This document shows positions 18,750-35,716 of a DNA stretch of 35,716 bases, in pieces; the stretch's first letter is position 1; every line of letters starts with the position of its first letter. This DNA is from a virus. The notes below the pieces were generated by a model. That model was given only the letters and a program-made list of their open reading frames with translations, ran no database searches and was not told where the DNA came from. The stretch lies in IMG/VR virus record IMGVR_UViG_3300017758_000043, positions 1 to 35,716 of that record. The stretch is one strand, 5' to 3'. The position numbers were made by a program, and so were the translations under genes.

Positions 18750-21185
18750 CTATCTTGGGTCGAACTCTGCTAGGTCAAACCCATCTAAGCTATCTTCATT
18801 TGATTCGAAGTTTTTAGGTGGAAGATTATTCTTCCTTTGATTTATAAGTTGTGATTGCTCAGTATTTTGCTGAGATATTCTTTTACCTTTAGCGGTCTCT
18901 CTTTGAGTCTCTCTACTTTGCAATGCATTTTCAGTCATACCATGTAACTGTAGATTGTAATTAAACTCTTCTGCCATTAACATCTTCTTCAACCCTGCTT
19001 CGTTGTTCATTTTCTCAATCTCAAACGATATCTCAGCTTGCTTGAGTTGCATCTTGCTTTCCATTTCCATTTGTGCTTTCTGCATTTCAGCTTGACTCTT
19101 AGCTTGCATAATTTGCATTTGTTGTTGAGAGGCAGCTTGTTGTTGCTGCATTTTCATTTTCTGCTCTTGCTCTTGCTTTTGCTTACGCTTTAGTTTTAAT
19201 AATTGATTAGCAAGCTTTAAGTTTTTTAATTCTCTTATATCAATTGCATCTTCTAGATTGATATCGTTTTTAGATAATGCCATTTGAATATTTTGCTCTA
19301 GCTGAGCCTTTTGTTCTTCATCAGGTGCAACATCTATAAATATACCAAAGTCATATATGTACAAGTCTGATATGTCATTTAGTATACTAACATTATATTT
19401 TCCAATCTTATTAATGAAGTCATCTTTAAAGTCAGAGTATTCTAAAATATCTCCAACTCTATATGTTAATGCTTCTGATAATGTTCTATAAATATATAAT
19501 GCACCATCAAGTATATGTCTAGTTGCTACGTTAGAATTTAATGCTGCTAACTTTTGTAGACCAACTAAAGAATTAGGGTCAGGGGAAGAAGCATCTCTAG
19601 CCTCATTTAATCCTGTTACTTGTCTAATCATACCTAAGTAATGATTATAGTTAGCGATAAGCATTTGTGTTTTCCCTGCTCCTGAGCTAGTGGTTAGTTC
19701 TTTTATAGGAACCTTACCTTGATTGTAATCTCCTTCTTGAGTATAGCTTCTACCAATAACAGAACCTGTTTGGAAATATAATCTTAAAGCATCTTCAGGA
19801 TTATATGCACCACCGGTACCTAAGTCAACTTCATTTAAACCATCTGCGTCAATATACACACCATCAGGAACTGTTCTAGCAATAACTTGTTGTAGCTTTA
19901 AGTGAGTAATCTGAATTAAATCTGCAAAAGGAATCATTCGTCTAACTAAAGACTCTATATTTCCTTTGTACATTCTTGGTGCTACTGCTACATAATTAGG
20001 AATAGCATGTTGACTAGCTGACTTAGGTCTTACCATGTTTTGAGCTAAATCCCATTTTAAAACAATGTTGGTTCCCATAACCATAACACCTTCATACCAT
20101 ACGTCAATAGTCTTTTCAATTTTTTCAAAGTTCCCATCTTCCATTACTTCAACAGGTGGGTTGAATTGGTCATCCTTTTCGATAACCTTACTACCTCCTG
20201 TTGCCATAATTTTTTTCTTGTATACTATTTTTTTAGTAGTCTTATAGTTGAAATACAAAAGAGTACAGGTATCTCTATAGAACATATCGTTCTCATAATA
20301 CTGAGCAACATTGTAATAGTCATACCAATTTTGACTGTACTTGCTTATTTCCTCTAAGTCTTCATTTGTTAACTCAGGGTCTATTTTCATTAATTCAATA
20401 ATCGGTAATGTCTTTACCTCGCCCCAATAGAAACAATCCTTAAAGTGAGGGTCTTCTGTGTAACTGTAAACAACGTTAGCAGGGTCAACATAAGATACCT
20501 CGACACCTGAGCCTAATAAAAATTCATGCTTAGCTATACCTATTCCTAATACTGCAATATCATAGTCACATCTTTTTCTTAAATCAATATAATGATTCTC
20601 TTCAAAGATGGTATTAATAGCTTCTTCATTAGCTATCTCTATTGAAGGCTTGTAATTAATTTGCATGTATAATGAAAGCTCCTCATCTGTTTGTGGGAGT
20701 TGGTCAGGGCTTACAGTAAAGGGGTCGAATCCTGATTGCTGCTGAACATCCATTAAGAAGTCTTTAGCAACCATCTGTGCTTCTACCATGTCTTGATACT
20801 TACTCCTTTTAGATTGAGACATTGCATCTTGAGCATATGCCTTTACCTTGAATAATCTATCAGACATCCCATTTACAACTATATCTACAAATTTAGGAAT
20901 GATAGGTACAGGAGTCCAATCTAAGTTTAGATAACTTAAGTCACCATCTACTGCTATTTCATTCTTGTATTTTGATACTGACTGCTCACCCCTTGCGTAT
21001 AAACGTAGTCGGTGAAAGTTTCTGAATTGATTGTAAAATCTACAACCTGACCCATCTCTTCTAAACCATTCATATTGTATAGCTTGACCTATTTGTAATC
21101 CATACTCTTTAGTTTCCTTTTCAGCGTCAGATACAAATTGACTTGGGAAAGCTGCAGATTTTATATTTACCTTTACATCTTTCAT
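18750..21185 (-). CDS. Portal protein
   Basis: 811 residues. The N-terminal half has the features of a large portal of the crAss-like/podovirus type: RFYNQFRNFHRLRLYARGEQ, then VPIIPKFVDIVVNGMSDRLF, and a conserved-looking FADLIQITHLKLQQVIARTV with VTGLNEARDASSPDPNSLVG further on. From about residue 650 to 735 there is a Gln/Lys/Met-rich coiled coil (KQKQEQEQKMKMQQQQAA), expected for the barrel/crown region. The acidic tail ends DLAEFDPR. Its start overlaps the large terminase stop by 4 nt (ATGA), so the two are translationally coupled. It forms the 12-fold vertex through which DNA is packaged and ejected. Confidence 0.85.
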   Translation of the reverse strand: MKDVKVNIKSAAFPSQFVSDAEKETKEYGLQIGQAIQYEWFRRDGSGCRFYNQFRNFHRLRLYARGEQSVSKYKNEIAVDGDLSYLNLDWTPVPIIPKFVDIVVNGMSDRLFKVKAYAQDAMSQSKRSKYQDMVEAQMVAKDFLMDVQQQSGFDPFTVSPDQLPQTDEELSLYMQINYKPSIEIANEEAINTIFEENHYIDLRKRCDYDIAVLGIGIAKHEFLLGSGVEVSYVDPANVVYSYTEDPHFKDCFYWGEVKTLPIIELMKIDPELTNEDLEEISKYSQNWYDYYNVAQYYENDMFYRDTCTLLYFNYKTTKKIVYKKKIMATGGSKVIEKDDQFNPPVEVMEDGNFEKIEKTIDVWYEGVMVMGTNIVLKWDLAQNMVRPKSASQHAIPNYVAVAPRMYKGNIESLVRRMIPFADLIQITHLKLQQVIARTVPDGVYIDADGLNEVDLGTGGAYNPEDALRLYFQTGSVIGRSYTQEGDYNQGKVPIKELTTSSGAGKTQMLIANYNHYLGMIRQVTGLNEARDASSPDPNSLVGLQKLAALNSNVATRHILDGALYIYRTLSEALTYRVGDILEYSDFKDDFINKIGKYNVSILNDISDLYIYDFGIFIDVAPDEEQKAQLEQNIQMALSKNDINLEDAIDIRELKNLKLANQLLKLKRKQKQEQEQKMKMQQQQAASQQQMQIMQAKSQAEMQKAQMEMESKMQLKQAEISFEIEKMNNEAGLKKMLMAEEFNYNLQLHGMTENALQSRETQRETAKGKRISQQNTEQSQLINQRKNNLPPKNFESNEDSLDGFDLAEFDPR

Positions 21186-23404
21186 CTAATTATTTCGCTT
21201 TGTATGCCGGTATTAGTATACCTTGCAAAGTTAAGTTTTATTTTTGACTCTTTTCTTTCAGTTACATATAAGTGTTTTTGACATGCCATTATAGCTAAAC
21301 CTGAGCTAATACTAGCATCATACTTAGTTCTGTTGTTAATATCAAATTTTGCCCAATCAGTTATAGTTCTGTTGAATGGCATAGTTCCCATCTCATCAGC
21401 AGGTCTAAAAACAGATTCAAAATCTAATCCTATATATTTTTCTATGTATGACTCTATAGCAGAAGCATGTGCCTGCTTAACACCTTCACTCGTATTTGGA
21501 ATACCCCCTAATTCTTTTTCAGTCTTAGATAGTTTATTAAATTGTTTATCAGGTCTATTGATACAATACTTTCTATAGCCTCTATTTTTAAAATGATACA
21601 ACAAACGAGGTTTATTATTCTCTACTAATATAGGCATTCCATAAAAAACACAAGCCATTAATACATCTTCAAAGAATATCTCGGCTGTTTGAGGTCTAGC
21701 TACATACTCTAGAAAAAATTCATTACTAGGTGCATCATCTATATTAAACTTAGTTAATCCATGTAGTGCTCCGTTGGAGCCTCCGCCTCCTACCACTCCA
21801 CTAATATCATATGAGTCACACCCAAAAGCACCTAGATGTTCATTACCGGGATACTTCTTTCCATTTTTCTGAATAGCATTGTTTTGAATATTAGATGATG
21901 GTAACCAAGAAATATTAAACCTACCTTTAGAGTCAGGAACCCAAATAACTTTAGAGTCTTTTATGCCGTTCTCCCATATAAACTTACCTCTTGTTATGTG
22001 ATGCTCTTTAATCATAGAATCATTATAATCTATTTGCTGATATAGCTTAGTAAGATTAAATATAGATTGCTTACTTTCATCTCTAAATGCATGAGACTCA
22101 GTGCGAGGGAACTGTCTGTAGTATTCGTTTAGTGCGTCTGCGTCTCCCTTCAGAGAGTCTACTTCTGCTTGCCAATAATCTATAGCACCTTGGTAAATCA
22201 TTTCACCATCTATTCCTTCAACTTCATGAGCAGGATTTTCTAAGACAGGCATTCCGTACCTATCTATAAAACCTTCCATGTTCCATTCCATTGGGATGAA
22301 AAGTGAATACATACCACTTTTGGTTTGACCATTAGCGTTTCGTGTTCTCACATCAGAGTCTTCATATAATTTTTTAAAATTACTACCACCTTTATCTAAT
22401 GCGTTTGATGTAGAACCCATCATGCATTTTCCAATTACCCTACTACCTAAACGTAAACAAGTTTTAGTTACCCTCCAATTATTTAATATGTTGTTTGGCT
22501 TAACCCACTTTCCACTTTCATCATGTACTAATAATAATAATTTTTCTCCATCATAAGAGTTGTCATCTGTATTCTTCCAATCAATAGTAGTATCTAGTCC
22601 CTCCATATCATCATCAAATACTTCATGCATATTTTTCTTTGTAATCTTAGAGGCAGGTATTCTAAAAGCTAATTCAGTTTTAGGTTTATCCATACCATCC
22701 ATAATAGGCTTAAAGAAAAATGGTAGTCTGCTATTTATAGGGACAACCTTATCAGTAAACATCTTCTTAGCATCAGCCCCGGTCTTAGATAAGATACCTA
22801 TCCTCGCATCTTTTGCTAAAGTGGCTGTGTTAATACATTCAGCTGAACCCATAAAAGAAAATCCTGAACGTCTTATTTTTAAATACACCATTCCAAAACT
22901 TCTAGCATCTGCTTTGCAAGCCTCCCAATATATAAACAAGGCTCTGTTTGCTTCTCTAAAATCAGGAGAACCGACATCAATTTTAGTCCACTGAAGATAC
23001 ATGTAATGAGAACCTGTTATGTATGTAGGTATACCCCTATTGAGAAACCAAAAGCCATCTTCTCTATAATCAAATTCTTTTTCAATATAATCTACATATT
23101 GGTCTTTAAAAGAGTTAGGCATTTCATTCCATTGAAATATAGATTTTATTTTTTCTAAATTACTTGGTAGTTCTTTTTTTTCCCAATATTGATTTAGTTT
23201 ATTTTCATGTCTTGAGTATACCTCTTTGGGTTTTTTAGGTAAGGCTATTTTTAAGTTAGAGATTTCTATTACGTTTCCTATTTGACCATTGCGAGATATA
23301 ATAACTACATCATATTTTTTGTTGTACCCATAAAGCCAACTTCGCCCTCTGTTTTTATTTGAGAGTACGTTTTTAGGTATATAATTTTTTAACTCCTTTA
23401 TCAT
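21182..23404 (-). CDS. terL: Terminase large subunit (TerL)
   Basis: 740 residues. ATPase half: a deviant Walker A at residues 176-187 (KIRRSGFSFMGS, a form typical of phage terminases) and a Walker B with catalytic Glu at 289-297 (LLLLVHDES, D295-E296), then a motif III-like MMGSTSNA at 328-335. Nuclease half: GCDSYD (D530, D533), VENNK (E595) and the closing YDASISSGLA (D696) fit the acidic residues of an RNase H-like headful nuclease. Length is normal. It pumps DNA through the portal and cuts the concatemer. It overlaps the upstream small gene and the downstream portal by 4 nt each (ATGA), giving a tight packaging operon. Confidence 0.9.
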   Translation of the reverse strand: MIKELKNYIPKNVLSNKNRGRSWLYGYNKKYDVVIISRNGQIGNVIEISNLKIALPKKPKEVYSRHENKLNQYWEKKELPSNLEKIKSIFQWNEMPNSFKDQYVDYIEKEFDYREDGFWFLNRGIPTYITGSHYMYLQWTKIDVGSPDFREANRALFIYWEACKADARSFGMVYLKIRRSGFSFMGSAECINTATLAKDARIGILSKTGADAKKMFTDKVVPINSRLPFFFKPIMDGMDKPKTELAFRIPASKITKKNMHEVFDDDMEGLDTTIDWKNTDDNSYDGEKLLLLVHDESGKWVKPNNILNNWRVTKTCLRLGSRVIGKCMMGSTSNALDKGGSNFKKLYEDSDVRTRNANGQTKSGMYSLFIPMEWNMEGFIDRYGMPVLENPAHEVEGIDGEMIYQGAIDYWQAEVDSLKGDADALNEYYRQFPRTESHAFRDESKQSIFNLTKLYQQIDYNDSMIKEHHITRGKFIWENGIKDSKVIWVPDSKGRFNISWLPSSNIQNNAIQKNGKKYPGNEHLGAFGCDSYDISGVVGGGGSNGALHGLTKFNIDDAPSNEFFLEYVARPQTAEIFFEDVLMACVFYGMPILVENNKPRLLYHFKNRGYRKYCINRPDKQFNKLSKTEKELGGIPNTSEGVKQAHASAIESYIEKYIGLDFESVFRPADEMGTMPFNRTITDWAKFDINNRTKYDASISSGLAIMACQKHLYVTERKESKIKLNFARYTNTGIQSEIIR

Positions 23405-29966: not shown

Positions 29967-30257
29967 CTAATATTTTCCTCGTTTATTTTTTGGACTTGAC
30001 TTGGTGCTACCTCCTGAACCTGCCCATAAATTTTTGCAGCTCCAATATCTAGCAGTCAGTTTTGACTTTGCGGTATCACACTTGTGTCTTGCCTTGAAAG
30101 ATTTTCTAGCAGCTGCACTATAGTTGTGTCCATATCCTTTGGCACCAAAGTGAATTAGCTTTTCTTTTCCACTCTCACAACCTTTAACCATTTTCTTTTT
30201 TCCTGCTCGGTCAGAAGGTCTAGGTTTATTGCAAGGCATTTTAGATTTGTCTGCCAT
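29967..30257 (-). CDS. Basic DUF5872-like protein (96 aa)
   Basis: Contains MVKGCESGKEKLIHFGAKGY, then GHNYSAAARKSFKARHKCDT, and KLTARYWSCKNLWAGSGG. This is the pattern I associate with DUF5872, found in phages and large algal viruses. Very Lys/Arg-rich with four spaced Cys (C9, C27, the Cys of KARHKC and the Cys of YWSC), so a metal-binding, nucleic-acid-associated role is possible. The start overlaps the stop of the DUF6321-like gene (TAATG), so the two are a coupled pair. Function is not known. Confidence 0.65.
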   Translation of the reverse strand: MADKSKMPCNKPRPSDRAGKKKMVKGCESGKEKLIHFGAKGYGHNYSAAARKSFKARHKCDTAKSKLTARYWSCKNLWAGSGGSTKSSPKNKRGKY

Positions 30258-30499
30258 TACTTTGTATATCTTTTAGTTACTCTTGCTCGTGGTGTATTAG
30301 CTACAACGGTTTTGCCGGAAGCTTTTTTCTTGCGTGCTGTCTTTGCTCTTTCTGCTTTAGTCATAGACTTGGCTTTAGCTAGTGGTAAGCAACGGTCAGG
30401 GTTCTTAGTGTCCTTGCTTGTACCACAAGCACCTTTGATAGAACCATCAAGTCCTATGCGTACCCACTTCTCATCTCTCCACTTCTTAAGCTCACCCAT
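30257..30499 (-). CDS. Basic DUF6321-like protein (80 aa)
   Basis: Reads GELKKWRDEKWVRIGLDGSI, then KGACGTSKDTKNPDRCLPLA, then KAKSMTKAERAKTARKKKAS. The GACGTSKDxKNPDRCLPxAKAxS..TKAERA core is the motif I connect with DUF6321 of phages and algal viruses. It is paired with the DUF5872-like gene here, as I recall from other virus genomes. Strongly basic with two Cys. Probably DNA- or RNA-associated; no proven role. Confidence 0.65.
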   Translation of the reverse strand: MGELKKWRDEKWVRIGLDGSIKGACGTSKDTKNPDRCLPLAKAKSMTKAERAKTARKKKASGKTVVANTPRARVTKRYTK

Positions 30500-30508
30500 T
30501 ACTTTTTA

Positions 30509-30661
30509 TTAAAATTGAGTTTTAGCTAAAGGTATGGACTTTCTTACCTTAGATTCTTTAACATTAAAAATACTATCTGTTTTTTTTAAATTACTTACAT
30601 ACGCTTGTTGTTCTTTACACTTTTCTAAAGAACGTCCTGTTTTACCTTTACATTTACTCAT
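30509..30661 (-). CDS. Small basic protein (50 aa)
   Basis: Reads MSKCKGKTGRSLEKCKEQQA, then YVSNLKKTDSIFNVKESKVR, then KSIPLAKTQF. Basic, with two Cys near the N-terminus (CKGKTGRSLEKC). Part of the row of tiny basic genes; 9 nt before the DUF6321-like gene. No family recognised with certainty. Confidence 0.5.
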   Translation of the reverse strand: MSKCKGKTGRSLEKCKEQQAYVSNLKKTDSIFNVKESKVRKSIPLAKTQF

Positions 30662-30663
30662 AA

Positions 30664-30716
30664 CTATTTCTTTTTAGATTTTCTATATTCTTTCATTGCT
30701 TCTTAAGCTCGCTCAT
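30664..30716 (-). other. Pair of micro-ORFs (7 and 10 codons), possible gene remnant
   Basis: MSELKKQ (30716-30693) starts inside the stop of the upstream gene (TAATG), and its TGA overlaps the ATG of MKEYRKSKKK (30696-30664). The joined reading would be a 17-residue basic peptide. It may be a decayed small gene or simply spacer. Confidence 0.25.
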
Positions 30717-30877
30717 TAGTATCCTTTTTTAGGAGAATACATGTTAGGGTTGTACTTAATAGAACCATTCATTACCTTAGAGAATTCACTTGCTTGTGCT
30801 TTACCCATAGCATTGTATGGAAATTCTCGTGTCATTTTTTTTCCTGTGTTTCCACATTTATAAGTTACTGTTGGCAT
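30716..30877 (-). CDS. Small basic conserved phage protein (53 aa)
   Basis: Reads MPTVTYKCGNTGKKMTREFP, then YNAMGKAQASEFSKVMNGSI, then KYNPNMYSPKKGY. The layout P.V.YKCG..GK..T..F.Y...GK.QA..F.K.MNG matches a short family in flavobacterial phages by my recollection. Basic, soluble, function unknown. 2 nt after the preceding gene. Confidence 0.55.
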   Translation of the reverse strand: MPTVTYKCGNTGKKMTREFPYNAMGKAQASEFSKVMNGSIKYNPNMYSPKKGY

Positions 30878-30879
30878 AA

Positions 30880-31038
30880 TTATTTCTTTTTAGATTTCTT
30901 AGCGTAGTTAGGGTCCTTGCAATACTTACTTGCAGCCATGTTAGCATAAGCAGAAGGGTATGTATCAAAGGTTCTCTTTGCCCATGCAATTCCTGCAGGA
31001 CATATCTTATTTCCTTTTGTTCTACCTTTCTTTGCCAT
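30880..31038 (-). CDS. Small basic protein with SAYAN motif (52 aa)
   Basis: Reads MAKKGRTKGNKICPAGIAWA, then KRTFDTYPSAYANMAASKYC, then KDPNYAKKSKKK. The core CPxGIxxAKRTFDTYPSAYANMxASKYCKDPNY is a pattern I recall from marine phages and some algal viruses, often near DUF5872/DUF6321-like genes. Two Cys and a poly-Lys tail. Likely nucleic-acid-associated; function is unproven. Confidence 0.6.
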   Translation of the reverse strand: MAKKGRTKGNKICPAGIAWAKRTFDTYPSAYANMAASKYCKDPNYAKKSKKK

Positions 31039-31042
31039 TAGT

Positions 31043-31297
31043 TTAAGCTATGCCATCTCTTGACATGTTATTAAATCCTCTTTGTCTTAAGTCCCTATCT
31101 TCTCTCCTTTGATTCTGTGCCTTTGCTCTCTTTTGAATTCTTTTACTTTTATTAAGAAGTCTTTTCTCTTTCTTCATCCTTCCCTCATCTAAAGCAATGT
31201 TAGACTTTGCACATACCTTGATTGCCTTTAACTCTCTCTTGGTTGCTTCTGAAATAGGTCTTTTACCTAATACTTCTTTCCTACATCTTTGACTCAT
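31043..31297 (-). CDS. Arg/Lys-rich protein (84 aa)
   Basis: Very basic, mostly helical: SQRCRKEVLGKRPISEATKR near the start, then KKEKRLLNKSKRIQKRAKAQ and QRREDRDLRQRG. The charge pattern suggests nucleic-acid binding, perhaps DNA condensation or packaging in the virion. Its start overlaps the previous gene's stop by 4 nt (ATGA). No known family recognised. Confidence 0.5.
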   Translation of the reverse strand: MSQRCRKEVLGKRPISEATKRELKAIKVCAKSNIALDEGRMKKEKRLLNKSKRIQKRAKAQNQRREDRDLRQRGFNNMSRDGIA

Positions 31298-31575
31298 ATC
31301 TTTTGTTTTTTGGTTCCTTTAAATCCTTTTAATTTTGCTAGCCCCATAAGGGTGTTGCTATAATTATTCCTTGAAGGTTTTTTAATTGATGGCTTTACTC
31401 CTGCTGAGCTTATTATATTTTCAGCTTGTGAATTTTTAATAGCCATATCTTTTAACTCAGTGAACGATGCTAAGGTCTGATTAAGAGCTACACTCATAGG
31501 ACTGTTTCCTAATACAGGAGTAGTCAAAGTCTTCTCTTGTTTTGGAGCTGTTGGTATTTTAGTATCTTTGGTCAT
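31294..31575 (-). CDS. First gene of the late cluster (93 aa), unknown
   Basis: Soluble, Lys-rich protein with N-terminal TKIPTAPKQEKTLTTPVL, a helical middle (ALNQTLASFTELKDMAIKNS) and a basic C-terminus (LAKLKGFKGTKKQKI). It is the promoter-proximal gene of the leftward cluster: a TAACTTTG box ends 4 nt before its ATG, and it faces the wHTH gene across 30 bp. Overlaps the next gene by 4 nt. Function is unknown. Confidence 0.5.
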   Translation of the reverse strand: MTKDTKIPTAPKQEKTLTTPVLGNSPMSVALNQTLASFTELKDMAIKNSQAENIISSAGVKPSIKKPSRNNYSNTLMGLAKLKGFKGTKKQKI

Positions 31576-31579
31576 AATG

Positions 31580-31587
31580 CAAAGTTA
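31580..31587 (-). promoter_or_regulatory. -7 promoter element TAACTTTG, 4 nt from ATG (late cluster)
   Basis: TAnnTTTG match with only CATT before the ATG at 31575, so transcription probably starts at or next to the codon. It lies in the 30-bp gap shared with the divergent wHTH gene, whose product could act here. Confidence 0.5.
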
Positions 31588-31605
31588 ATAAAATAAAATT
31601 TATAG

Positions 31606-32004
31606 ATGGATTCAGAAAATTACTTGAAGTATTGGAGAGTTGTTAGATACTATATTAAAAAGAAATATAATCTAACTACAGCAGAACTAGAGGTGTTGTT
31701 GTTTTTAAAAACAGAGGGTAGGTTTTCTCGTAATGACTTTGACACATTCAATGAAGTTGTCAGTTGGGACAAGAAACGTTTTGAAAGATTAAGACAACAA
31801 GGTTGGATTGAAGTATTTAGAAAGAAGCATGGCAAACACAAAGCACTATATCAGCTTACGTATAAATCAAAAAGAGTTATAGCTTCAGTATACTCTAAGT
31901 TAAACGGTGGAACTATTCCTACGTCTGTGTTTAGTAATAAGAGCTATACTGATAAAGTATATAGAAACCTTATAGAACAACTACGACATCCCTCTCCTGA
32001 ATAA
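31606..32004 (+). CDS. Winged-helix (MarR-like) DNA-binding regulator, 132 aa
   Basis: After an N-terminal helix (YLKYWRVVRYYIKKKYN) the segment LTTAELEVLLFLKTEGRFSR (residues ~23-42) reads as the first helices of a winged HTH. Next comes SWDKKRFERLRQQGWIEVFR, a recognition helix running into a beta wing, then KALYQLTYKSKRVIASVYSK. I recall this family in flavobacterial phages. It is the only plus-strand gene within the leftward module, separated from the first late gene by 30 bp, and overlaps groES at its 3' end by 35 bp (convergent). It probably regulates the divergent late promoter; this is inference from fold and layout. Confidence 0.7.
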   Translation: MDSENYLKYWRVVRYYIKKKYNLTTAELEVLLFLKTEGRFSRNDFDTFNEVVSWDKKRFERLRQQGWIEVFRKKHGKHKALYQLTYKSKRVIASVYSKLNGGTIPTSVFSNKSYTDKVYRNLIEQLRHPSPE

Positions 32005-32227
32005 CCGTAATCTTTTTTCCTTCGATTAAAAGAGTGTGTGCATTCCTGAAGTCATAGTATACCTCATCGCTCTCTACTATTCCTTGAACTTCATTACCCA
32101 CGCCATGAACCTTCCCTTTATGGTATCTTCTACTTTGTGCTTCGTGATTCGTTAATAATATTCCTGACTCAGTTCTTATCTCTTCTTCTATTGGCTCGAT
32201 TAAAATATATTTACTTATTGGTCTCAT
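31970..32227 (-). CDS. groES: Co-chaperonin GroES
   Basis: 85 residues against ~97 for bacterial GroES. It shows the family order: MRPISKYILIEPIEEE, mobile loop with ESGILLTN (the GIVL-type GroEL contact), HKGKVHGVGNEV, SDEVYYDF, and the closing VIQERDVVVVL. It caps the GroEL ring encoded just upstream (18 nt spacing). Short GroES proteins of this type are known from phages. Its 3' end overlaps the convergent wHTH gene by 35 bp, leaving no room for a separate terminator. Confidence 0.88.
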   Translation of the reverse strand: MRPISKYILIEPIEEEIRTESGILLTNHEAQSRRYHKGKVHGVGNEVQGIVESDEVYYDFRNAHTLLIEGKKITVIQERDVVVVL

Positions 32228-32245
32228 GTGTTTTATTTAATTATT

Positions 32246-33850
32246 CTAACTCTTCTTTCTATGCATTGTTATAATAGCATTGGTAGATAGTAAAGTAACT
32301 GCAACACTTATTGCATTTTGTAAGGCTGACCTTGTGACTTTTACAGGGTCTATAACTCCCATGCTAATCATGTCACCCCACTTCTCGTTCTTTACATCAA
32401 AGCCTTGTCCCCATTCTCTACTCTTACAGTCGTCTCCTTCTTCATACATAGAAGCATCCATCCCTGCATTAGCAAGTATTTGTATTAGTGGAGCTTGCAA
32501 TGAAGTTCCTAAAATTGCGTAAGCAATTTTTTTTGCGGAAATATCCTCTCTCTTACTATGATGCTCGTAATCCTTCCCTATCGAGTACAAAGATAATCCA
32601 CCACCGGGTAGTATACCTTCTTCTAGTGCTGACTTAACTGCACACACAGCATCGTCCACTCTATCATATAATTCTTTTTGTTCTAGGTCTGTATTACCTC
32701 CAACATATATTACACCAATGCCACCGGTTAGTGATGCAATTCTTTTTTCTATAAAGCTTCTTAATTGTTTGTCTTTGGAAATCCCATGCTGAACCCACAA
32801 CTCTTCTACTCTATTATCTACTGCTTCCTGATTATCTGCTGTGTCATCTTTGATGATGATACTTGAGTCCCGACCAACTATCACCTTAGCACAGTGACCC
32901 AAGTCACCAAAGTTTATTAAGCTCAAATCATCTCCTGTCTCTCCACTAAAATATGTGGCACCTACTGCAAGAGCAATGTCGTTCATAAGTTCGTGTTGTC
33001 TGTATCCAAAGTCAGGTGGTGGAATGTTTACAATCTTAAGACTGTTCTTCATTACATTCGCTGCCATTGTATTTATGAAACCTTGAGAGCATGGTGCAAT
33101 AATCATTAACTGCTTCTGCTCGCTGATGATTGGCTTGAGTACACTTTCGATTTGCAATATGCTATTTATTTCGGTATCACATACCAACACATACACATCC
33201 TCCATTACGCATTCGTCATGCTTGTGGTTATTGATAAACAAATGTGAACTCCACCCTCTGTCTATCTTAATCCCTTTAGTGCTTTCGAAAAACGTTTCGT
33301 GGTTCTTTGATTTCTCTACCGTAACTATTCCATCCTTACCAACTTGCTTGTATACCTCAGCAATTTGTTTTCCTATCTTCTCATCATTGTTCGCTGATAT
33401 CACAGCTACATCTTTTAACTTACTACCGGATACCTTCTTGCCCTTCTTCGTAAGCGTCTTTATCATTACCTCACACTCCTGTTGTAAAACTTTTAAAACC
33501 TCTGTTCGATTTACACCCTCATCTATCTTAACCATACCCTCCTTGACTAACGCTTCAGTCAATACAATTGCAGTAGTCGTTCCATCTCCTGCTGAGGTTG
33601 CAGTCTTGTCTGCCGCTTCCTTCATAATACGTACCGCTAAATTCTCCACAGCGTCTAATAAGAAAATAGACTTGGCTACAGTTACACCATCTTTGGTTAC
33701 TGTAATTCCATGTGTATGTTCTTGTGACTCTATGAGAACTGTGTTCCCTCGTGGACCTAATGTAGACTTGACTGCTTTAGCAATCTGTGTTATTCCTGAT
33801 AGTAATTTCTCTCGACCATCGGAATCGAAGTGTAGCTGTTTTGGATTCAT
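32246..33850 (-). CDS. groEL: Phage chaperonin GroEL
   Basis: 534 residues, full length. It has LGPRGNTV (31-38), TKDGVT (52-57, D54), GDGTTTA (88-94, D89), DRVDDAVCAVKSALEEG (D400 in the place of E. coli D398, needed for ATP hydrolysis), LPGGG (414-418) and GVIDPVKVTRSALQNA (498-513). The C-terminus ends MHRKKS and lacks the GGM repeats of bacterial GroEL. The apical domain is divergent. Forms the folding ring that works with GroES from the next gene. The leader carries a TATCTTTG box at 33877-33884. The target is presumably phage virion protein such as capsid (inference). Confidence 0.95.
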   Translation of the reverse strand: MNPKQLHFDSDGREKLLSGITQIAKAVKSTLGPRGNTVLIESQEHTHGITVTKDGVTVAKSIFLLDAVENLAVRIMKEAADKTATSAGDGTTTAIVLTEALVKEGMVKIDEGVNRTEVLKVLQQECEVMIKTLTKKGKKVSGSKLKDVAVISANNDEKIGKQIAEVYKQVGKDGIVTVEKSKNHETFFESTKGIKIDRGWSSHLFINNHKHDECVMEDVYVLVCDTEINSILQIESVLKPIISEQKQLMIIAPCSQGFINTMAANVMKNSLKIVNIPPPDFGYRQHELMNDIALAVGATYFSGETGDDLSLINFGDLGHCAKVIVGRDSSIIIKDDTADNQEAVDNRVEELWVQHGISKDKQLRSFIEKRIASLTGGIGVIYVGGNTDLEQKELYDRVDDAVCAVKSALEEGILPGGGLSLYSIGKDYEHHSKREDISAKKIAYAILGTSLQAPLIQILANAGMDASMYEEGDDCKSREWGQGFDVKNEKWGDMISMGVIDPVKVTRSALQNAISVAVTLLSTNAIITMHRKKS

Positions 33851-33876
33851 GTTAAATTAAATTTGATTATTTTTAG

Positions 33877-33884
33877 CAAAGATA
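33877..33884 (-). promoter_or_regulatory. -7 promoter element TATCTTTG before groEL-groES
   Basis: TAnnTTTG match 26 nt upstream of the groEL ATG at 33850, in the 51-bp gap with the divergent 52-residue gene. The leader also holds the ATTTGATT element. Confidence 0.55.
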
Positions 33885-33901
33885 AACAAAATATTTGCAA
33901 C

Positions 33902-34060
33902 ATGGAAGAATGGGTATTAAGTATTGCGTTTCACTTTCCTCATGACAGACTAGCTATCGGTTGGGAATTTATAAATGCAGACGATAAAGAAAACTACTAC
34001 ACAATAAATGTATTTTTATTTATAGCAACACTTACACTAGATATGTACCCACGTAAATAA
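33902..34060 (+). CDS. Small conserved phage protein (52 aa)
   Basis: Reads MEEWVLSIAFHFPHDRLAIG, then WEFINADDKENYYTINVFLF, then IATLTLDMYPRK. The pattern W.....FHFPH.RLA.GWEFI..DDK.NYYT...FLFI.TLTLD matches a tiny protein I remember from flavobacterial phages; no function known. I chose the ATG at 33902 rather than an in-frame ATG at 33863, because the latter lies inside the groEL promoter region and a promoter-like AATATTTG ends 4 nt before 33902. Divergent from groEL. Confidence 0.6.
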   Translation: MEEWVLSIAFHFPHDRLAIGWEFINADDKENYYTINVFLFIATLTLDMYPRK

Positions 34061-34134
34061 TGTAGAGTTTTTGTCTCCCTACTCTCTCTCTCTTATTATA
34101 CACACAAAGATTTTTTTTCCATATACGAGGCTTT
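34061..34134. other. Non-coding spacer left of the repeat array
   Basis: Starts after the 52-residue gene. It holds a (CT)5 run and a T8 run but no convincing terminator hairpin for the plus-strand gene. Nothing else is visible. Confidence 0.4.
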
Positions 34135-34238
34135 AAACTTAACATACTTAACATTATTAAATTAATATATTAATAATCAATTAGTTATAAAAATAAAGTC
34201 TACATAAAGTTAACATAAAGTCTACATCAACTTAACAT
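34135..34238. repeat. Iteron-like array of 11-bp direct repeats around an AT palindrome (origin candidate)
   Basis: Four tandem 11-mers without gaps: AAAGTCTACAT (34195-34205), AAAGTTAACAT (34206-34216), AAAGTCTACAT (34217-34227), CAACTTAACAT (34228-34238). Two more copies lie at 34135-34154 (AAACTTAACAT, then a 9-bp ACTTAACAT). Between the groups is almost pure A/T, including a perfect palindrome at 34161-34174. An 11-bp period puts each copy on the same face of the helix, as in replication iterons or cooperative operator arrays. The origin role is inference. Confidence 0.55.
34161..34174. repeat. Perfect 14-bp AT palindrome
   Basis: ATTAATATATTAAT is its own reverse complement and is embedded in a longer imperfect dyad (ATTATTA ... 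TAATAAT). It sits between the two groups of 11-bp repeats and could be a DNA-unwinding element or a dimer site. Confidence 0.5.
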
Positions 34239-34245
34239 ATATAAA

Positions 34246-34277
34246 CAAAAAAGAGGAAGCTACTATTAGCTCCCCCT
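34246..34277 (-). terminator. Rho-independent terminator after the 66-aa gene
   Basis: On the minus strand an 11-bp stem (34277-34267 with 34262-34252, three G-U wobbles that pair only in this orientation) encloses a 4-nt loop and is followed by six U. It stops the leftward transcript of the 66-residue gene before it enters the repeat array. Confidence 0.8.
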
Positions 34278-34335
34278 ATTATTGGTTAGTCAAAACACTA
34301 CTAAAGCCTAACCTAAAAAAACTATCTCGATATAG

Positions 34336-34536
34336 TTATCTTTTAAATAAGTCTATGTTAGCTTGTGATAACTCATTACCCTCTGCTATCATTTGAACCT
34401 TATCATATCTTTTTGCATTCGCTCTCATTTGAGCTAACTTAGTAATACCCATCTCAGGTGATGGTGCCATATTAATAAGTCTTCCATCTTCTACTTTATA
34501 TCCTTGCATTGATGGTGGAATATTTAACTTTCTCAT
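34336..34536 (-). CDS. Small protein of unknown function (66 aa), single-gene unit
   Basis: Reads MRKLNIPPSMQGYKVEDGRL, then INMAPSPEMGITKLAQMRAN, then a basic/helical C-terminus (KRYDKVQMIAEGNELSQANI, ending DLFKR). I chose the ATG at 34536 because a TATCTTTG promoter box lies 23 nt upstream; a longer in-frame start at 34587 would place the promoter inside the gene. It has its own promoter and terminator, so it is expressed independently of the late module. No family recognised. Confidence 0.55.
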   Translation of the reverse strand: MRKLNIPPSMQGYKVEDGRLINMAPSPEMGITKLAQMRANAKRYDKVQMIAEGNELSQANIDLFKR

Positions 34537-34559
34537 AATAATAATTGTTGGTTGAATTA

Positions 34560-34567
34560 CAAAGATA
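34560..34567 (-). promoter_or_regulatory. -7 promoter element TATCTTTG for the 66-aa gene
   Basis: TAnnTTTG match upstream of ATG 34536. Nearby, a 9-bp direct repeat ATATAGCAT occurs at 34586-34594 and 34602-34610 (16-bp period), about 20-45 bp upstream of the box, where an activator could bind. Confidence 0.55.
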
Positions 34568-34610
34568 ATAAATTTATTTAGATGCATATAGCATTTGGGT
34601 TATATAGCAT

Positions 34611-34977
34611 GACACGCAAGTGACCCCCATCCCGAAACCCATTTTTTTTTGCTTTGATTTTTTCAATTCCTAATTTTTATCTCGGATTTTTTGCCGTTTT
34701 TCTTTTGTGCTACCGGTACCAATGTGCTGCCTAGCTGTGCAGCTCCCTGTATCCTGTGGCTGTGTATTAATCCTGTCCCATTTAACGTAGATGTAACCCC
34801 ATTGCACTAGCCTCCCAAGGCTATGCGTATACTAAACAAAGTATATAGGCAATAGCCTTCCCTCGTTAACCCCTGCACGACACATTATATATATAAACAA
34901 ACATACCCAAAAACACCTCTTGCAACTTATTGATAGTCAGCGACTTATAACAAATATTAAAAATAATTAAAAAAAAG
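34611..34977. other. Non-coding region with long hairpin and locally higher GC
   Basis: No ORF worth calling. Contents: a T9 run at ~34642; a GC-richer segment at about 34700-34880 with short dyads (TACCGGTA; AGCTGTGCAGCT); and a long hairpin at 34817-34859 with a perfect 8-bp outer arm (AAGGCTAT / ATAGCCTT) and a 6-bp inner arm (GTATAC / GTATAT). It could be an untranslated RNA, part of the origin, or a packaging site. Nothing identifies which. Confidence 0.4.
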
Positions 34978-35009
34978 TTTGGTAGATACATATATATAGA
35001 CTAGATTTG
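34978..35009 (+). promoter_or_regulatory. Strong flavobacterial-type promoter, rightward (early genes)
   Basis: TTTG at 34978-34981, exactly 20 bp, then TAGATTTG at 35002-35009: a full match to the Bacteroidota -33/-7 consensus (TTTG, N19-21, TAnnTTTG). It is preceded by an A-rich stretch resembling an UP element. Transcription should start near 35015 and run into the genes at the right edge. Confidence 0.75.
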
Positions 35010-35271
35010 TACCGGAGATAAACGTTCCTTGACATTTTGAGATATAACGCACTGACAATCAGTTAGTTAGCTAATTTAAGCTTTCTATCTCGCTGATAAT
35101 CAGCTAGTTATAGCGTACGTTGTGTGAACAATAGTAGTACTAGATACCTATGGGTGCTATGATGATAACCAAATTTTTACCGCTAGGCGGAGCGAAAATC
35201 TAAGGGCTATTGGTGTAACAACAAAACTAACTAACACCTGCTAGAGCAGGCTAGTGTAAGCGATTGCACAA
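35010..35271 (+). promoter_or_regulatory. Structured early leader with boxA-like element, dyads and hairpins
   Basis: A boxA-like CGTTCCTTGACA lies at 35023-35034 (8 of 12 bases match E. coli boxA TGCTCTTTAACA). Two 5-3-5 dyads follow with matched changes: ACTGA-caa-TCAGT (35051-35063) and GCTGA-taa-TCAGC (35092-35104), 41 bp apart, each followed by TAGTTA. Then a 17-codon ORF at 35150-35203 (MGAMMITKFLPLGGAKI), a CCGC-TAG-GCGG hairpin (35180-35190) and a bulged hairpin at 35234-35257 (CTGC-TAGA-GCAG core). The layout suggests antitermination or operator control; this is inference. Confidence 0.5.
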
Positions 35272-35340
35272 ATGAGAGCAAAACTCATGTTAGTAGCTAA
35301 CAGCATAAAGCCCTTTGCGACAAACACAGGCATTATTAAG

Positions 35341-35595
35341 ATGAAAACACTACAAGACTTATTTGAATTACAAGGTAAGGCGGTACAAAAATACAGCACA
35401 TCAGAAGTATATGGTGATGTGTTTTTTAGCTATTCCGGTCACGTTAACCAAATGGATGTAACCTACTATCCATTGGGATGGGACAAAAAAGACGAGGCAA
35501 CAAAGTACGAATTTACTACCTATCTAACTGATGAAGGCATCCAAGCCATGTATTGGTGGATAATTGTTAACCTAAGAGTAACCAACAGAAAATAA
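35341..35595 (+). CDS. Early-region hypothetical protein (84 aa)
   Basis: Reads MKTLQDLFELQGKAVQKYST, then SEVYGDVFFSYSGHVNQMDV, then TYYPLGWDKKDEATKYEFTT and a Trp-rich end (AMYWWIIVNLRVTNRK). I chose the ATG at 35341 because it opens the recognisable domain; an in-frame ATG at 35272 would add 23 residues with no clear fold. First rightward gene after the strong promoter and structured leader, so probably expressed early. No known function. Confidence 0.5.
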   Translation: MKTLQDLFELQGKAVQKYSTSEVYGDVFFSYSGHVNQMDVTYYPLGWDKKDEATKYEFTTYLTDEGIQAMYWWIIVNLRVTNRK

Positions 35596-35609
35596 TAAAT
35601 AAAAACACT

Positions 35610-35716
35610 ATGGCAAAATTAAGAAATCACACCAAAAAAAGACAGGCAACAGCTAATGAAATAGCTAAGGCTATCATTATTGACAAGCTAGAAAACTTTT
35701 TCTACTTCACTGATAA
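35610..35716 (+). CDS. Partial early gene cut by right window edge
   Basis: ATG at 35610 opens MAKLRNHTKKRQATANEIAK, then AIIIDKLENFFYFTD, still open at the edge (35 codons seen). The N-terminus is basic, then helical. It lies 14 nt after the previous gene with an A-rich leader. Too little is visible to name it. Confidence 0.5.
   Translation, partial: MAKLRNHTKKRQATANEIAKAIIIDKLENFFYFTD

Follow-up and report, generated by a model that had tools for sequence, protein, structure and literature searches.

The element at approximately positions 34060–34277 of the window—a viral contig record analyzed over its whole length of 35,716 bases—is best explained as belonging to a family of Bacteroidota podoviruses and having the layout of an oriC or iteron origin in miniature. 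We consider it reasonably probable that this oriC-like or iteron-like element is an initiator-binding site, probably serving as an origin at groEL, while its counterpart at the primase gene would be another origin or a control site. This reading is the best supported because the repeats are conserved, an IHF-like bend site accompanies them, duplex stability is lowest here, the element is free of its flanking genes, and relatives encode replication genes together with DnaA domain IV proteins. The initial annotation, which had proposed an iteron-type origin, is thus upheld in part: an origin-like, initiator-binding element stands, while the palindrome and the uniform 11-bp phasing are not conserved. 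The record stops before the replication genes; statements about the right arm rest on relatives, and the window's own protein B gene and second element would lie beyond the end of the record.

The right repeat array consists of four gapless 11-mers on the + strand at 34195–34238 (AAAGTCTACAT, AAAGTTAACAT, AAAGTCTACAT, CAACTTAACAT), as previously described; the first three match AAAGTYWACAT exactly and CAACTTAACAT departs from it by two mismatches. It is the top four-copy tandem array of period 9–25 in the whole window. Matches at lag 11 occupy 25 of 33 positions, whereas 300 shuffles of the window gave no more than 24, and the score was not reached in any of 2000 local shuffles; the tandem direct repeats characteristic of iteron origins are therefore present above chance. 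The two further copies first reported as part of the same series are real, but they form a left pair of ACTTAACAT (34137–34145 and 34146–34154, + strand) spaced at 9 bp rather than 11 bp, a pair that nearly all relatives retain in the form YRACAT-N3-YRACAT. An inverted copy, AAACTCTACAT, lies at the left edge of the element (34060–34070, − strand), and inverted copies occur at the same place in relatives. Uniform 11-bp spacing is not conserved among relatives.

Nearest-neighbor energies place the weakest 60-bp duplex of the whole window at 34153–34212 and the weakest 100-bp duplex at 34144–34243, in line with the proposed AT-rich unwinding zone; as in iteron origins, low-stability A/T-rich duplex thus adjoins the repeats. 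Duplex stability at the element is also low in relatives, though not always the lowest of the genome. A CT-rich tract and A/T-rich stretch to the left of the repeats (34079–34136) form a candidate unwinding side; the tract is kept in relatives as CT or TA repeats, and in several of them the weakest duplex falls within this side. The perfect 14-bp A/T palindrome ATTAATATATTAAT (34161–34174) exists as described, but it is not a conserved part of the element: palindromes of this length arise in 5% of local shuffles, and the symmetry is broken in two relatives (G001 and G002), the first of which is the closest sister and reads ATTAATATACTAGT. The palindrome is probably incidental, and we rejected it as the functional core. 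Directly beside it, at 34175–34187 (+ strand), lies AATCAATTAGTTA, a sequence match to the IHF consensus WATCAANNNNTTR as printed in PMC10380432. At this position, 23 of 26 aligned elements, counting that of the window, have an IHF-like site (WATCARNNNNTTR), against a whole-genome background of approximately 10–15 such matches per genome; the strict WATCAANNNNTTR is present in 19, and the three elements that do not match WATCARNNNNTTR are one or two mismatches away from it. Bacteroidota hosts may be without true IHF; HU is its ubiquitous paralogue (PMC10380432). No phage-encoded HU/IHF homolog exceeded the cut-off in relatives, while control genomes were positive.

Genes of the window run nearly all leftward, including that for the terminase large subunit (21182–23404) and the phage-encoded pair groES (31970–32227, − strand) and groEL (32246–33850, − strand), which together span 31970–33850. 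groEL is the landmark to the left of the element—it was found beside it in essentially all long relatives examined—and has a TAnnTTTG-type motif of its own at 33877–33884. The rightward arm begins near 35272, so that on a large scale the element does lie between leftward and rightward arms, as had been stated; its nearest ORFs, however, are convergent. One is a small rightward ORF of 52 aa (33902–34060, + strand), found only in near relatives and missing in most. The other is a small leftward gene of 83 aa (34336–34587, − strand) without a Pfam match, whose relatives follow the element in most genomes; its product has a conserved core, EMGITKLAQMR...KVQMIAEG. The right border of the element is the intrinsic terminator of this gene (34252–34277, − strand), where 11 pairs are followed by a T-run (−16.8 kcal/mol, z −3.6); the leftward terminator claimed beside the repeats is convincing, and a hairpin occupies the same place in most relatives. 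No Rfam match for a structured RNA was found across 30000–35716.

Several other features of the region were observed. Three IHF-like cores (AGTCAGCGACTTA, AATCAGTTAGTTA, and AATCAGCTAGTTA at 34935–34947, 35057–35069, and 35098–35110) flank a Bacteroidota-type promoter, TTTG-N20-TAGATTTG, at 34978–35009, which from its sequence would fire the rightward early arm. Approximately 260 bp (35010–35272), again with no Rfam match, are untranslated between this promoter and the first rightward ORF. On the other side, an ORF at 31606–32004 (+ strand) overlaps groES in antisense and matches a PHROG of transcriptional regulators; a gene in the same place in phage MW202828 is annotated as "repressor protein."

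The nearest relatives are IMG/VR contigs and one annotated phage, MW202828 (60,850 bp, circular); more distant relatives include Flavobacterium, Cellulophaga, and Tenacibaculum phages. The layout of the groEL-side element (element 1) recurs upstream of groEL in 26 relatives, with TerL identity of 72%–98% in the subset for which it was measured. From the left, the order is often an inverted copy, then a CT/TA-repeat tract, an A/T-rich stretch, and a YRACAT pair 9 bp apart; an IHF-consensus site such as TAATCAATTAGTTA takes the center, followed by two to four words approximately 11 bp apart, often another inverted copy, a hairpin in most genomes as the right border, and then the small leftward gene. 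The repeats are therefore retained in sister phages along with the flanking genes, as an architecture with changing sequence. Some relatives have acquired genes or tRNAs to one side or the other of the element and still retain it, which argues that it is kept for itself rather than as part of a neighbor. In G008, 1.9 kb separate it from groEL. By eye, tRNA-like sequences adjoin the element, three in a row in G026 (L202–L204) and singly in G048 (L226) and G067 (L265). Generic YRACA density was tried as a genome-wide locator and discarded as too unspecific, other windows scoring equally high.

A profile of the element (nhmmer) identified a second element in 24 of the 26 relatives, weak matches aside. 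Element 2 has the orientation of element 1 and lies approximately 10 kb from it, immediately upstream of the primase-helicase start codon; among 45 genomes inspected, it is missing in G004, G016, G057, G062, and G076. The profile found no third site able to serve as an origin. A single origin, as first annotated, is accordingly in question: there may be two, or a regulatory role may fall to one of the sites. For element 2, the options are a second origin and regulation of the primase gene, separately or together. Since element 1 is the more constant (26 of 26 relatives as compared with 24 of 26, with G004 and G016 having only element 1), it is favored as the main origin.

The repeat words of the two elements change together. 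Words differ by lineage (TCAACAT, TCGACAT, GTTAACAT, CAACAG), and across lineages the repeat cores are of YRACA, AAGCA, TAGGTA, and RTCAT types. The unusual words AAGCAC (G049–G051), TAGGTA (G018), and RTCAT (G009, G067) represent cores that arose in at least four separate lineages, and in all of these genomes the unusual core of element 1 is matched in the existing element 2. Among 32 representatives, similarity of the two elements within a genome was 0.392, as compared with 0.185 ± 0.022 for shuffled pairs; none of 10,000 permutations was as similar as the true pairs, under a permutation that leaves ancestry shared between neighboring genomes in place. This concerted change suggests that one shared trans-acting DNA-binding protein probably reads both elements.

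Candidates for such a protein are found in relatives with a complete right arm, which encode two small DnaA domain IV proteins, A (approximately 100 aa) and B (130–190 aa, with a helix-turn-helix and, by eye, a coiled-coil-like tail); in G016 only protein A was seen. In MW202828, A and B are encoded at 51033–51335 and 60107–60676. Four of the five A/B proteins tested exceed the Pfam cut-off of 31.5 bits for PF08299 (Bac_DnaA_C), and the B protein of G014 falls below it at 25.8 bits; a profile of B matches 1J1V, the entry for E. coli DnaA domain IV, at 3e-7. A Pfam scan of ten right-arm and flanking proteins of relatives recovered the DnaA domain IV proteins and no Rep family (RepA/pi/TrfA). 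AAA+ DnaA (PF00308) gave no match above the cut-off in any of the 26 records, while control genomes were positive; the full-length AAA+ DnaA that accompanies oriC in the same genome is thus not found here. Replication enzyme domains in relatives are BT4734-like_N, PriCT_1, and DUF5906. Because the recognition helix is nearly constant in A (HSSIIHG) and variable in B, B is the likelier reader and most likely binds the repeats. In E. coli DnaA, D433 is a base-contacting position (PMC5043019); of 149 columns of B, the equivalent of D433 is the most associated with the repeat base, and with base states assigned by hand from aligned elements, all 10 phages with Asp at this position have the TCG-type repeat, as compared with 7 of 31 others. 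However, 4 of 521 GroEL columns associate with the repeat base equally well, and the tree offers too few independent switches for a test of the association of B with the repeats. We rejected this covariation as independent proof, given confounding by ancestry; the assignment of protein to repeat is suggestive.

The rival explanation to be taken most seriously, though we judge it unlikely, is that of a regulatory operator: a DnaA-like protein would control the primase operon and the groEL/late side through looping by an IHF bend, as happens in repression complexes, and neither site would be an origin. Element 2 immediately precedes the primase start codon and in most genomes follows a terminator-like hairpin, which means that the promoter of the primase has to lie within or close to this element; a TAnnTTTG motif of Bacteroidota type occurs there in 5 of 39 cases. 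Element 1 has a terminator on one side and the leftward groEL unit on the other, and two sites per genome also fit regulation. However, in 24 of 26 genomes groEL carries a −7-like motif of its own, 16–52 bp from the gene start and away from element 1; element 1 also drives no rightward gene and stays intact when genes are inserted on its groEL side or tRNAs on the other. Moreover, operators do not need very low duplex stability. Less probable again is that the element adjusts the level of replication by binding the initiator, in the manner of titration or control loci such as datA, DARS, and P1 incA, with the true origin elsewhere, perhaps at element 2. The E. coli datA locus is likewise non-coding and joins an IHF site to DnaA boxes (PMC10380432), and this reading also fits two elements per genome; against it stand the greater constancy of element 1 and the lack of a third origin-like site in the profile search. 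The datA locus differs in acting via hydrolysis of DnaA-bound ATP, which is impossible without AAA+.

Two other explanations draw on the pairing of repeats with a bend site, and we regard each as highly improbable. A packaging site would resemble lambda cosB, in which repeats serving as terminase boxes are joined to an IHF site, but with two equal sites approximately 10 kb apart, each genome would be cut twice; furthermore, the element is approximately 10 kb from terL, contig ends have no fixed position, and the assemblies of five relatives are circular, with overlaps of 92–136 nt, in place of the single site at fixed DNA ends that typifies cosB. Lambda attP and P1 parS also join repeats to IHF sites, so an attachment site or partition centromere could share this layout; however, no tyrosine integrase was found in 18 records and no ParA-type ATPase in 26 (PF13614 only), with control genomes positive in both searches, and two sites per genome also speak against these roles. 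GC skew does not help to locate an origin. The test put forward in the initial annotation does place the minimum within about 1.6 kb of the element (0–1.6 kb right of groEL in 14 genomes), but gene-strand skew is near equal in three segments (0.155, 0.159, and 0.151), indicating that skew follows transcription; we rejected it as an origin test, since gene direction alone explains it.

Among known systems, the left half of E. coli oriC (DUE–DnaA boxes–IHF site–DnaA boxes) shares with the element an A/T-rich side, boxes flanking an IHF/HU-type bend site (here recognized by sequence), and a DnaA domain IV protein as candidate reader; in oriC, the bend made by IHF brings the unwound DNA to the initiator (PMC10380432). 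The DnaA box TTATNCACA also has a right half similar to the repeat core TCRACA; however, the full box is not matched, the words being AAAGTYWACAT here and TCRACAT in relatives. The phages further differ from oriC in lacking AAA+ DnaA, in having a DUF5906 (D5-like) helicase rather than DnaB, and in carrying two copies per genome. The iteron plasmid origins R6K gamma and P1 oriR have tandem direct repeats near the helical pitch, an A/T-rich part, an IHF-type site, and a second repeat locus, all of which have counterparts in the element, but no RepA/pi-type Rep was seen here, and the repeats are short (7–11 bp) and accompanied by DnaA domain IV proteins. Phage P4 has two repeat loci, ori and crr—which, like P1 oriR and incA, are paired origin and control loci—and a primase-helicase replication protein; two loci with co-varying repeats are observed here. 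The alpha protein of P4 carries its own origin-binding domain, whereas a separate DnaA domain IV protein is proposed for the present family. The cultured Flavobacterium elemo phages have a TerL 45% identical and a TOPRIM primase/helicase; proteins A and B have no match in them.

Under the initiator-binding reading, protein B, a DnaA domain IV without AAA+, would load on the repeats, and a host protein of HU/IHF type would bind and bend the center, a bend that could join the two repeat groups. The weak duplex would then open and replication would start here, with the BT4734/PriCT/DUF5906 primase-helicase entering the opened duplex; element 2, at the primase start codon, would act as a second origin or control site. 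A broader proposal, which we put forward tentatively, is that this large phage family initiates replication at two matching origins, both read by a DnaA reduced to domain IV, and that the specificities of initiator and repeats have re-evolved jointly several times. No phage origin of this type was found described in the open-access literature.

For most phages identified only from metagenomes, the origin is not known; in this family, which spans at least several hundred contigs, both a conserved, repeat-coded element and a likely reader for it can be put forward. If the DNA-binding domain of DnaA alone initiates replication, box recognition would be separable from AAA+ unwinding, and the family would offer dozens of naturally varied protein–DNA pairs from which the specificity code of DnaA domain IV could be read. 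If the broader proposal is true, the family would also provide a natural series of orthogonal initiator–origin pairs. The presence of two co-varying sites 10 kb apart makes control by one origin or by two directly testable.
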